IMG/VR virus record: IMGVR_UViG_3300048011_000039
Span: 1 to 30,598 of that record
Length of the DNA stretch: 30,598 bases
Source of the DNA: a virus
Direction: 5' to 3' (one strand)
The notes below the pieces were generated by a model. That model saw only the letters and a program-made list of their open reading frames with translations, did no database searches and was not told the DNA's origin. Shown here piece by piece: positions 22,437 through 25,756 of this stretch. A program made the position numbers and the translations under genes. Every line of letters starts with the position of its first letter. Within the stretch, counting starts at the first letter, position 1.

Positions 22437-22810
22437 CACCGCGTCACCCTCTCTCCGCTGTAGGTTACATACTGCCCGAACCGCTCAAGGCATAACTGCC
22501 GATAGCTTTCGCTTTGCATGAAGTCGTGTGTCTCCTCGTCGAGCCTCGTCCACTTGCGATAAGGGATGACGCCCGTCACATCTGCGGCTTTTTGCGCAAA
22601 GGGACTAATACCTTTCTCCATTTGTGCCGCTTTCTTTAGCCAGTTAACGACAAACGACTTGCAGTTTTTTTTGCGTCTAGCAGGGTTAGCATCAATCCAA
22701 CACTCTGCGGCGTCATACTCAGCAAAAACATCGACACTAGGATACGCGTGTTGCCACTTAATAAAATCCTCGTCAGCGGGATACCATTCCTCGCCATGAA
22801 AGTCTTTCAA
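22436..22810 (-). CDS. Possible replisome organiser / helicase-loader-like protein
   Basis: 124 residues with a strong AGGAGG ribosome site and an unusual TTG start at 22810. The block AECWIDANPARRKKNCKSFVVNWLKKAAQ (about residues 37-66) resembles the C-terminal region of phage replication initiators and helicase-loader-like proteins, where the W..ANP.RRK...FV.NWL pattern recurs. There is no ATP-binding site. It may recruit host replication enzymes, since the phage carries none of its own. The assignment is tentative. Confidence 0.45.
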   Translation of the reverse strand: MKDFHGEEWYPADEDFIKWQHAYPSVDVFAEYDAAECWIDANPARRKKNCKSFVVNWLKKAAQMEKGISPFAQKAADVTGVIPYRKWTRLDEETHDFMQSESYRQLCLERFGQYVTYSGERVTR

Positions 22811-23049
22811 TGGAAACCTCCTTCTGCGTTTTGTGCTTTAACTGCCTGATCGACAATGTGGTGAAACAAATGATTGGGTGGAAACGTGCCGTCAAATTCT
22901 CTTCCATCACTTTGCATTTCGAAAATACGCCAAAAGCTAGTTTCATATCTTTGTTCTAGAGTGTCGATTGCCTCTCGACAACCTTCGAAACTTTCATACA
23001 TCCCATCCATTAACCCAGTGCGCATATCAATCAATAGAAACTTACTCAT
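22807..23049 (-). CDS. Small hypothetical early protein
   Basis: 80 residues, start ATG 23049 with the ribosome site AAGGAGAAGGGA directly before it. MSKFLLIDMRTGLMDGMYES leads into EGCREAIDTLEQRYETSFWRIFEMQSDGREF. No family recognised. It is the first gene after the 386-base non-coding stretch. Its ribosome site contains GAAGGGA, complementary to the loop of the sRNA at 23354-23438. Confidence 0.6.
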   Translation of the reverse strand: MSKFLLIDMRTGLMDGMYESFEGCREAIDTLEQRYETSFWRIFEMQSDGREFDGTFPPNHLFHHIVDQAVKAQNAEGGFH

Positions 23050-23081
23050 TCCCTTCTCCTTTTTTTAGACAATAGAAATCA

Positions 23082-23217
23082 TTAGAGGCGGTTGTTGCCC
23101 TATACGAGATTCCAGCTAGTCCATCATTCATACAGTATCAGTGCAGATCATTAACGGCTCTGCCAGACCGCGCCCTTACTACTTGGCAACATAACCACTG
23201 TTCGTCCCCGCCTCTAA
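23082..23217. repeat. Long-range inverted repeat in the non-coding region
   Basis: TTAGAGGCGG at 23082-23091 pairs perfectly with CCGCCTCTAA at 23208-23217. Just inside, GGTT and GTTGCC (23090-23099) can pair with GGCAAC and AACC (23185-23196) around a two-base bulge; the arms share 2 bases. The enclosed 85 bases have no convincing ORF. It could be a structured RNA on either strand or a DNA-level signal. The 23050-23436 gap holds only this and the sRNA gene. Confidence 0.7.
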
Positions 23218-23319
23218 AGGTCGTAGGAATGATTCGGCTTTTGTGAGCGACTGCACCTGAGACAGCACTATTTGACTAGGCTCGACTAGGCGTACATTAA
23301 AAAGAGGATAGGTGATAGG

Positions 23320-23347
23320 TATACAGTCAGCTGTATTGCTGTATAAT
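23320..23347 (+). promoter_or_regulatory. Plus-strand sigma-70 promoter of the small RNA
   Basis: TATACA (23320-23325) is a 4 of 6 match to the -35 and TATAAT (23342-23347) is a perfect -10, spaced 16 bases. The expected start is the G at 23354. It points against the surrounding minus-strand genes. Confidence 0.75.
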
Positions 23348-23353
23348 TTTCCT

Positions 23354-23438
23354 GTCCTAAGTACGCAAGCTAAGGATGCCACGAGCGAATCCCTTCCGCA
23401 AGTGGCTATGGGCCAGTGATGAGCTGGCCCTTTTTTTT
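23354..23438 (+). ncRNA. Phage small RNA candidate, about 85 nt
   Basis: It is bounded by a sigma-70 promoter and a strong intrinsic terminator, with no ORF or ribosome site between. Visible stems: TCCT..AGGA near the 5' end, GCCAC-GA-GCG-loop-CGC-AA-GTGGC (23378-23406), and the terminator GGGCCAG/CTGGCCC. The 9-base loop AATCCCTTC (23388-23396) contains TCCCTTC, which complements GAAGGGA in the ribosome sites of the genes starting at 23049, 25301 and 25496. It lies convergent with the HTH gene at 23437. A regulatory sRNA is the simplest reading; no known family is recognised. Confidence 0.7.
23410..23438 (+). terminator. Strong intrinsic terminator of the small RNA
   Basis: GGGCCAG TGATGAG CTGGCCC (7-bp stem, 7-base loop) is followed by eight T residues. 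It is directional for the plus strand; on the minus strand no U-run follows. Its T-run reaches the stop of the HTH gene at 23437-23439. Confidence 0.93.
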
Positions 23439-23640: not shown

Positions 23641-23850
23641 TTATCTCCCTAATCTCTCAAACTCGTCTAATGACAAGTTGAACATTTGACACAACGTAAC
23701 CACCCGACTGAACTTCATGTCTTCGTGATGACGCCACCGACTAATCTGCACCGGTCTGACATTAAACTCTTGGGCGAGCTGGTGATTGCTGACGCCTGCC
23801 AGTGCTTGAGCCTTCTTGAGTGCGCGTCCCGTGCTAGAAAGGCAGGTCAT
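23641..23850 (-). CDS. Cro/CI-type HTH regulator
   Basis: 69 residues. The helix-turn-helix spans about residues 19-42 (GVSNHQLAQEFNVRPVQISRWR) and matches Cro/CI-type folds, followed by FSRVVTLCQMFNLSLDEF. The start at 23850 overlaps the SSB-like gene by 17 bases. It is the only lambda-repressor-like protein seen and may bind the palindromes at 25319 or 20063. No matching partner repressor or integrase is seen. Confidence 0.75.
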   Translation of the reverse strand: MTCLSSTGRALKKAQALAGVSNHQLAQEFNVRPVQISRWRHHEDMKFSRVVTLCQMFNLSLDEFERLGR

Positions 23851-24121
23851 CTTCTAGCTCCTGTGTCGGTTTTGCGGCTTGACGTGCATTAGCTATTCCT
23901 TGCTTTGCTACTTCGGCTTGATCTGGCTCAAAGGTATCCATCTTTACATACAACTTTCCAGCTTTTGAACGCATGATTTCCATGTTTGCCGAATCACCTT
24001 CAAGGGAATTCAAAAACGGAATAAACTCCGACTTTTTCACCCATAACTTACATATCGCATAGTCAGGTGCATTGTCGTTTCTTTTCGGTATCAATCCGTC
24101 TACAAATGTAATATCAGCCAT
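23834..24121 (-). CDS. Single-stranded DNA-binding-like protein
   Basis: 95 residues with AAGGAG upstream. The C-terminus is LEDDLPF, an acidic tip ending in DLPF that closely resembles the partner-binding tail of bacterial SSB proteins. The body, with APDYAICKLWVKKSEFIPFL and GKLYVKMD, could form an OB-like barrel, but it is short. It follows the Erf-like gene and would supply ssDNA cover for annealing and host replication partners. Another possibility is a small ssDNA-binding accessory protein without an OB fold. Confidence 0.65.
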   Translation of the reverse strand: MADITFVDGLIPKRNDNAPDYAICKLWVKKSEFIPFLNSLEGDSANMEIMRSKAGKLYVKMDTFEPDQAEVAKQGIANARQAAKPTQELEDDLPF

Positions 24122-24704: not shown

Positions 24705-24994
24705 TACTGGCCCCCTCTGTTTTCATACTCGTAACAGTCAGCGTAACCAGCGTTGTACGCCTCTGACTTGCCGGCACGATGCTCGATGCCTTCTTCGCAG
24801 TCAGTCCAGCCACGAATGAAGTCTTGCTCTGACAGCTCTAAGAAGTCAGCCATCCTCGCTTCCATTACCGCTTCTTGCACATGAAACGTCATTGGCTTAC
24901 GGATTGACAGGTTGTGCAGTTGGCTTACTAGCCCATCAAGCTCTTGGATCAGCTCTGCCTTGATTGGCTTCGGCTCTACAAATTTAATTGACAT
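24704..24994 (-). CDS. Small hypothetical early protein
   Basis: 96 residues. MSIKFVEPKPIKAELIQELD leads to a helical region, and the C-terminus FIRGWTDCEEGIEHRAGKSEAYNAGYADCYEYE has repeated GW/GY...Y patches seen in small uncharacterised phage proteins. No function is assigned. Its start overlaps the end of the previous ORF and its stop touches the Erf-like start, so it is translated in series with them. Confidence 0.6.
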   Translation of the reverse strand: MSIKFVEPKPIKAELIQELDGLVSQLHNLSIRKPMTFHVQEAVMEARMADFLELSEQDFIRGWTDCEEGIEHRAGKSEAYNAGYADCYEYENRGGQ

Positions 24995-25301
24995 AATCTA
25001 GCCCTTCTAGTTTTGCGCAGACTTCTTCTGCGTTAATGATGTTGTGGTCTTGCCATTTGCACGAATGGACACAGATACCGATTTCTTCAACAAACTCTGT
25101 ACGCCCCTCAGACTCGACGGGGTAACGACCGCCTACAGGGTGGTAGTGATCGTCAATTGATTTTTGATCCACAAGAAGTGTGACGACTTTGGCTTCTGCG
25201 TCGTAGTCATCAGCACTCGCCGTGCTATCAATCTTCTCAAGCTCATCGACCCACTTGTCCCAGTCATCGACCTGCTTGCTGATTTGTATTGCTATTTGCA
25301 T
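24984..25301 (-). CDS. First gene of the early operon, hypothetical
   Basis: 105 residues with a GGGAG ribosome site. MQIAIQISKQVDDWDKWVDE begins an acidic protein that continues with DYDAEAKVVTLLVDQ and a two-cysteine region HSCKWQDH. No family recognised. Its ribosome region (GAAGGGAGAAAGCGATG) is similar to that of the plus-strand gene at 25496, and both proteins start MQI. It lies directly downstream of the parS-like palindrome. Confidence 0.6.
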   Translation of the reverse strand: MQIAIQISKQVDDWDKWVDELEKIDSTASADDYDAEAKVVTLLVDQKSIDDHYHPVGGRYPVESEGRTEFVEEIGICVHSCKWQDHNIINAEEVCAKLEGLDYVN

Positions 25302-25318
25302 CGCTTTCTCCCTTCAAA

Positions 25319-25455: not shown

Positions 25456-25498
25456 CATCGGCTGGGTACACAGCTACTAACCAAGGGAGAAGGGAATG
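25456..25498 (+). repeat. Shared 5' leader element, copy 2
   Basis: It starts CATCGGCTGGGTACACAGCT and runs through AACCAAGGGAGAA to the ATG at 25496. It matches copy 1 (19748-19705, minus strand) at 34 of the first 36 bases, then differs slightly before the start codon. Its presence at two unrelated genes on opposite strands suggests a mobile or selected control element. Confidence 0.85.
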
Positions 25499-25756
25499 CA
25501 AATTAAACTTAATAAAAGAGAAGTAGAGCTGTTTTACGCGGGCTTGTTACTTGGGAAAATCTTAGATGTGGATCAAGAATACTCCACACATGACTGTGTC
25601 GGGTTTGGGGATTTTGAAGGGATGCTCATACAGCTGTGCAAAAAAACACTGACGCTTGACTTTGACCATACCGATGGTCGCGACAAGTATTTCGCAAGCA
25701 TAGGCATTATGTATGAAGCCCAAAAAGAAGTTAAAGAATGGCTCGGTGGAGATTAA
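25496..25756 (+). CDS. Plus-strand early hypothetical protein 1
   Basis: 86 residues with AAGGGAGAAGGGA directly before the ATG. MQIKLNKREVELFYAGLLLG leads to DQEYSTHDCVGFGDFEGMLIQLCKKTLTLDFDHTDGRD, then a helical end. No family recognised. It is divergent from the early operon and carries the shared leader. It may encode an early host-takeover protein, but this is inferred only from position and small size. Confidence 0.6.
   Translation: MQIKLNKREVELFYAGLLLGKILDVDQEYSTHDCVGFGDFEGMLIQLCKKTLTLDFDHTDGRDKYFASIGIMYEAQKEVKEWLGGD

Follow-up and report, generated by a model that had tools for sequence, protein, structure and literature searches.

Does a stretch of about 85 bases that runs against its neighbouring genes in an uncultured viral contig encode a small regulatory RNA, and if so, which genes could it act on? 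Only a small number of phage RNAs that act on phage genes have been described, and most of these come from enterobacterial phages in culture. The sample is a single uncultured viral contig, IMG/VR record IMGVR_UViG_3300048011_000039, of which positions 1-30,598 were analysed (the window, 30,598 nucleotides). A sequence-only reading had proposed a compact small RNA gene on the plus strand and, as a weaker idea, its pairing with ribosome sites. No DNA-similarity match to the window was found among annotated phages, and hence no cultured relative by DNA; the terminase is approximately 48-54% identical to that of Pelagibacter, Vibrio and other phages. Related loci were gathered from viral contigs through pattern and protein searches, and many were found. 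The protein encoded at 23834-24121 on the minus strand ends in DDLPF, which resembles the C-terminal tip of single-strand binding proteins, and has no Pfam match.

Signals and fold of the small RNA gene

Positions 23354-23438 (85 nt) are predicted to form three hairpins with a folding energy of -36.5 kcal/mol, and none of 200 shuffles was equally stable. The last hairpin is an intrinsic terminator with a stem of 8 pairs (23410-23430), 6 of them G-C, and T8 right after it. The perfect -10 box and the strong terminator with eight T residues that had been proposed are both in place and kept across relatives, the terminator with covarying pairs, and the flanking genes lie on the minus strand, as had been stated. 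The suggested -35, TATACA, is present at 23320-23325 with a 16-base spacer to TATAAT, but it forms one side of an inverted repeat and lacks conservation across types. Simple consensus scans of the window gave no excess of promoters (10 found versus 20.0 in shuffles) or terminators (13 versus 13.5), so the significance of the RNA gene rests on conservation. A covariance model of which the window copy is itself a part scored that copy at 94.6 bits (E 1.2e-22) and found nothing else convincing in the window, the next best hit reaching 13 bits. As a single sequence, the 281 nt upstream fold no better than shuffles on either strand; the signal there is comparative only. No tRNA or tmRNA was found.

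The stretch had also been described as free of open reading frames. Mechanically, an ATG at 23376 on the plus strand opens a 53-aa frame that extends beyond the terminator, and a 67-aa GTG frame overlaps it on the minus strand (23179-23382). Neither looks coding, because indels in relatives shift the frame.

Features of the locus in the window, with the evidence for each
Feature	Position	Strand	Evidence
SD AGGAGAAGGGA of gene 22807-23049 (80 aa), candidate target	23050-23062	-	duplex -10.8 kcal/mol; GAAGGGA abuts ATG
Domain A (type I), conserved, putatively structured leader ahead of the next gene on the minus strand	23066-23289	-	RNAalifold -22.8 on minus versus -15.5 on plus
Long hairpin of the putative leader (GCGTAC..GTACGC, GGATAGG..CCTGTCC)	23290-23366	-	covariation
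Inverted repeat TATACAG-N12-CTGTATA, left arm containing the proposed -35	23320-23345		arms covary
-10 box TGTATAAT	23340-23347	+	TATAAT at 23342-23347; kept in relatives
Small RNA, inferred 5' end at about 23354	23354-23438	+	fold z = -4.5; covariance model match
Hairpin 1	23354-23377	+	fold; 85.7% of cells paired
Hairpin 2, C-rich seed AAUCCCUUC in a 9-nt loop (23388-23396)	23378-23406	+	98.7% of cells paired, nearly invariant
Intrinsic terminator, stem and T8	23410-23438	+	100% of cells paired; in relatives, 4/7 pairs with both sides changed
GAAGGGA in SD of gene 24984-25301 (105 aa), candidate target	25309-25315	-	duplex -10.6 kcal/mol
GAAGGGA in SD of gene 25496-25756 (86 aa), candidate target	25489-25495	+	duplex -10.8 kcal/mol; abuts ATG

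Conservation in uncultured phages

About 95 distinct small-RNA sequences were collected from many uncultured phage contigs, and at least three structural types can be told apart among them, with 36, 35 and 24 members. Because the scan that gave these sequences demanded a -10 box and a CCC stretch, the box was also checked in stretches for which domain A, the conserved segment upstream, was the sole criterion of choice. TGTA[TC]A[AC]T is present in 64/72 and 45/48 distinct stretches, versus 0 and 3 on the opposite strand of the same stretches, and nearly all exceptions have TACAAT or TAGAAT. All types carry the box 6-7 nt ahead of hairpin 1 and the terminator at the end of the RNA. The type 1 structure has 95% of its cells paired, with 49 cells changed on both sides (17.8 when shuffled) and a covariation score of 0.215 versus 0.085 shuffled, values that 0/500 shuffles reached; the best slid version of the structure scored 0.082. 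Most of this covariation comes from the terminator, since hairpin 2 hardly varies, and the type 1 model picks up the other types weakly. With constraint acting on both strands, wobble counts inside the small RNA cannot tell which one is transcribed, and the decision falls to the terminator and the -10 box.

The -10 box, a structured body and the terminator are all kept on one strand, as in intrinsically terminated bacterial-type sRNA genes, and a plus-strand small RNA gene is strongly supported by the comparison. Relatives lacking both the promoter/terminator pair and paired stem changes had been named as evidence against such a gene; the relatives collected here keep the -10 box, the three hairpins and a covarying terminator. 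Rfam gave 0 matches in the window and five relatives, and nothing relevant at E values up to 10. One pattern scan of bacterial genomes returned 7 matches, none of them homologous by nhmmer; they were taken as chance, and bacterial carriers were rejected.

Two further variations were observed. Loci L035, L036 and L060 form a further subtype with the loop TTCCCTTG or ATCCCTTG and TTATACT as its -10 region. Upstream of the -10 box of L229, L195 and L138 (type 3), tandem repeats of 10-11 bp (gtgtccaagg, gtaacgagtt) replace the -35 and are possibly activator sites.

A C-rich seed in three structural contexts

A (U/A)CCC(U/G) stretch is exposed in a loop or linker in all types. In type 1 the hairpin 2 loop contains it as UCCCUUC or ACCCUUC, and the fold agrees with the seed AAUCCCUUC and the 9-nt loop proposed earlier. 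It reads CUCCCUU in a loop and runs on into UUGG in type 2, and reads CUCCC(U/G) in the linker ahead of the terminator in type 3. The same pattern is found in sequences picked by the second type of domain A alone. As far as the aligned relatives tell, the C-rich stretch is kept while the structure around it changes, in three structural contexts.

This stretch might instead merely mirror a minus-strand SD-like element (AAGGGAG or GAAGGG with a nearby RTG) that serves a leader peptide, the plus-strand RNA being incidental. Many members do have an RTG or TTG on the minus strand at 4-9 nt from the end of the SD-like run, and frames are called there, at 23179-23382 and in relatives. However, the start is lost in L032, L146 and L161, the frames vary widely in length and are shifted by indels, some stopping within about 10 codons, and it is the plus strand that has the conserved -10 box and the terminator with covarying pairs. 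This explanation is regarded as highly improbable.

A probable structured leader on the opposite strand

The sequence-only reading had missed that the small RNA belongs to a larger module. From the comparison of relatives, the small RNA is one half of a mosaic module of about 380 bp, the other half of which is a predicted structured leader on the minus strand. Domain A of this leader exists in two unrelated types, strongly conserved and at an equivalent position, which recombine with the small-RNA types. Type II, represented by L061 (just beyond 5155), has a multibranch fold closed by GAUUACUG/CAGUAAUC, with -40.4 on the minus strand versus -28.5 on the plus strand and GC/GU/AU exchanges on the minus strand. 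Because the minus fold is stronger and the G-C/G-U/A-U switches fall on that strand, domain A is best read as a structured leader that ends at the SD of the next gene. It has no Rfam match and looks like an unclassified cis-regulatory RNA. Coding sequence was rejected for domain A on account of single-base indels. Loci L046, L047, L131, L138 and L166 are mosaics of a type-I domain A and a type-2 or type-3 small RNA; wherever the SD that comes after domain A can be read in them, it differs from GAGAAGGG.

The long hairpin of the leader cannot form together with the antisense of hairpin 1, and in every type it overlaps hairpin 1. Its outer helix has a wobble count of 13 on the minus strand versus 4 on the plus strand, and its arms read GCGTAC, GCACTCA, GCACAC or GCATAC in relatives, with matching partners. 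The inverted repeat is the apical part of this hairpin, a helix of 7 pairs with a Watson-Crick fraction of 1.00 across 42 sequences, in which the arms change together (TGTACAG/CTGTACA). Other types have unrelated arms and, in many cases, short tandem repeats at this site. A single long plus-strand RNA spanning 23065-23438, of which the -10 box would be a mere hairpin arm, was rejected on two grounds: types whose arms are unrelated still have the box, and wobble pairs assign domain A to the minus strand. Several relatives have a U-rich tract after the long hairpin on the minus strand (CCTATCCTCTTTTTAATG in the window, TCATCTACTTTTTTGTC in L061), which is a possible weak terminator. Alignments inspected by eye revealed no conserved minus-strand promoter in the module.

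Two overlapping transcripts of this kind could form a cis-antisense attenuator, in which the RNA acts mainly by pairing at full length with the crossing leader and, as in RNAI/RNAII or pT181, prevents or forces the long hairpin and thereby sets read-through or translation of the next minus-strand genes. The complementarity is perfect by position, the minus-strand structure is selected, the covarying arms meet hairpin 1 in every type, and the U-rich tract is found in several types including that of the window. Yet some relatives lack this tract, the module itself has no recognised promoter on the minus strand, and both the CCC(U/G) seed in three contexts and the distant SDs that follow the seed are left unexplained. 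As the main mode of action, attenuation is considered rather unlikely.

Association between seeds and ribosome sites

As had been pointed out, three genes, with starts at 23049, 25301 and 25496, have GAAGGGA at their ribosome sites; at 23049 and 25496 the motif directly adjoins the ATG. The motif occurs 7 times in the window on both strands, one occurrence being the RNA's own complement, and matches of 7 bases to purine-rich SDs are cheap. The products of the three genes have no convincing Pfam or PHROG match. The family of gene 24984-25301 shows GAAGGGAG in 25 type-1 loci (motif-filtered sites). The SD of gene 25496 (25474-25495) contains CCAAGGGAG, which fits the type-2 seed, besides the GAAGGGA that fits its own type-1 seed.

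Among SD windows, GAAGGG occurs in 48/460 (10.4%) with type 1, 4/364 (1.1%) with type 2 and 2/279 (0.7%) with type 3. Type-2 genomes use CCAAGGGAG, the complement of CUCCCUUGG, and one gene family has TGAAGGGAG together with a type-1 RNA (CCCUUC) and ACCAAGGGAG together with a type-2 RNA (CUCCCUUGG). Counted per combination of gene family and seed allele, the base preceding AAGGG is complementary to the one that follows CCCUU in the RNA of the same genome in 56/114 units, against a shuffle mean of 29.5 and a maximum of 46 in 20,000 shuffles (p < 5e-5), which ignore kinship and do not remove lineage effects. Leaving out the SDs carried by the module, 42/86 units match versus 23.0 shuffled, kinship again ignored. 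The trend is clear for three of four seed alleles and weak for the fourth, and is also seen inside gene families.

For the gene adjoining the leader, the SD base follows the loop base in 29/33 type-1 loci (loop U with SD A in 8, loop A with SD U in 21, and four exceptions). A tree built from the intervening sequence shows two changes of the loop base, with the SD agreeing in about 1.8 of 2 cases, and five changes of the SD base; since the loop changed only twice, this pair is not significant alone. Elsewhere in type-1 genomes, the 5' base of the seed and the SD base show no such agreement (loop A: SD U in 2, SD A in 10), and at 8 nt matches to type-2 seeds are as frequent in these genomes as matches to their own seeds (3.0% each).

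The seed alleles and their matched ribosome sites seem, from these comparisons, to evolve together, which lends the proposed pairing comparative support. Lineage effects are the main weakness of the association, as SD dialects could be common within lineages or spread by recombination. The RNA would then be real, the association would reflect a lineage-wide SD preference or recombining SD cassettes, and the targets would be host messages or others. The few loop changes on the tree, the lack of specificity of type 1 at 8 nt and the recombination of modules with their neighbours speak for this; against it, the varying base adjoins the SD core, the signal stays without the module SDs, and the trend recurs by allele, the weak fourth excepted, and within gene families. 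It is judged unlikely.

Proposed mode of action

We consider it probable, with considerable reservation, that the locus encodes a phage regulatory RNA of about 85 nt whose C-rich seed pairs with the SDs of selected phage genes and blocks ribosome binding. What the sequence comparison itself provides is a conserved RNA with its strand, -10 box and terminator, a seed in three contexts and a base association between seed and SD; from these we infer transcription, translational repression by pairing, and its timing. Transcription would begin about 6 nt past the conserved -10 box and stop at the intrinsic terminator, giving a stable RNA of three hairpins. The seed AAUCCCUUC would cover the SD, first of all that of the gene starting at 23049, directly downstream of the leader, and the genes starting at 25301 and 25496 are probably targets too. 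Blocked from ribosomes, the paired genes would be turned off. Being perfectly complementary over its full length to crossing minus transcripts, the RNA may also control the leader in cis, opening or closing it.

As seed alleles seem to evolve with matched ribosome sites, target choice and its evolution are testable by base swaps. By analogy, seed alleles and SD dialects might, quite speculatively and with low probability, define RNA-coded compatibility groups among related phages. The RNA of a resident or co-infecting phage would then shut off newcomers with the same seed and spare other seed types, a c4-like heteroimmunity spread across several genes at once. The paired leader would add a second, unclassified structured RNA.

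Comparison with known systems

In ColE1 RNAI/RNAII and the pT181-type systems, an antisense RNA of three hairpins is made from a promoter of its own and covers the beginning of a long, structured transcript. The RNA described here is likewise antisense to a predicted structured minus transcript, as wobble and covariation indicate, but the module has no recognised conserved minus promoter and the minus transcript seems to be a read-through mRNA ending at the SD. RsaE/RoxS and the cuckoo RNAs are trans-acting bacterial sRNAs that aim an unpaired C-rich motif at SDs. This likeness is shared, whereas the sequence is unrelated and the motif, CUCCCUU or CCCUUC, fits the phage's own SD dialect.

The sar RNA of P22 (68/69 nt) and the OOP RNA of lambda (77 nt) are short phage RNAs that pair with phage messages (PMC12197685), as is predicted here; no sequence or structural relation to them was found and no repressor circuit was recognised at this locus. 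OOP acts on cII in cis, whereas the seed described here also matches unlinked SDs.

The c4 RNA of phages P1 and P7, of about 77 nt, pairs through its loops around a ribosome-binding site and blocks translation (PMC12197685, PMC5320573), and a few changed bases common to c4 and its target separate the P1 and P7 pairs, giving heteroimmunity (PMC12197685, PMC5320573, citing Citron and Schuster 1990). Mature c4 arises from a longer precursor through RNase P processing (PMC5320573). No antirepressor, the type of gene that c4 targets, was recognised, because the candidate targets lack convincing Pfam or PHROG matches, and no match to C4 antisense RNA was found at the Rfam gathering threshold in the window and five relatives. 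The RNA described here differs in having its own -10 box and terminator on the opposite strand, which argue against c4-like processing from a longer same-strand transcript, and in its fold and its several candidate targets. It shares with c4 the phage origin, a similar length and a loop complementary to ribosome-binding sites (GAAGGGA at 23049, 25301 and 25496). Loop and target differences that may compensate each other, as in c4, are suggested by 29/33 adjoining-gene pairs in agreement and a family-level p < 5e-5, but the loop changed independently only twice on the tree. By this analogy, c4 of P1 and P7 would be the nearest parallel in mechanism, and the RNA, which is not a c4 member, forms a new, independent family with an apparently c4-like mode of action.
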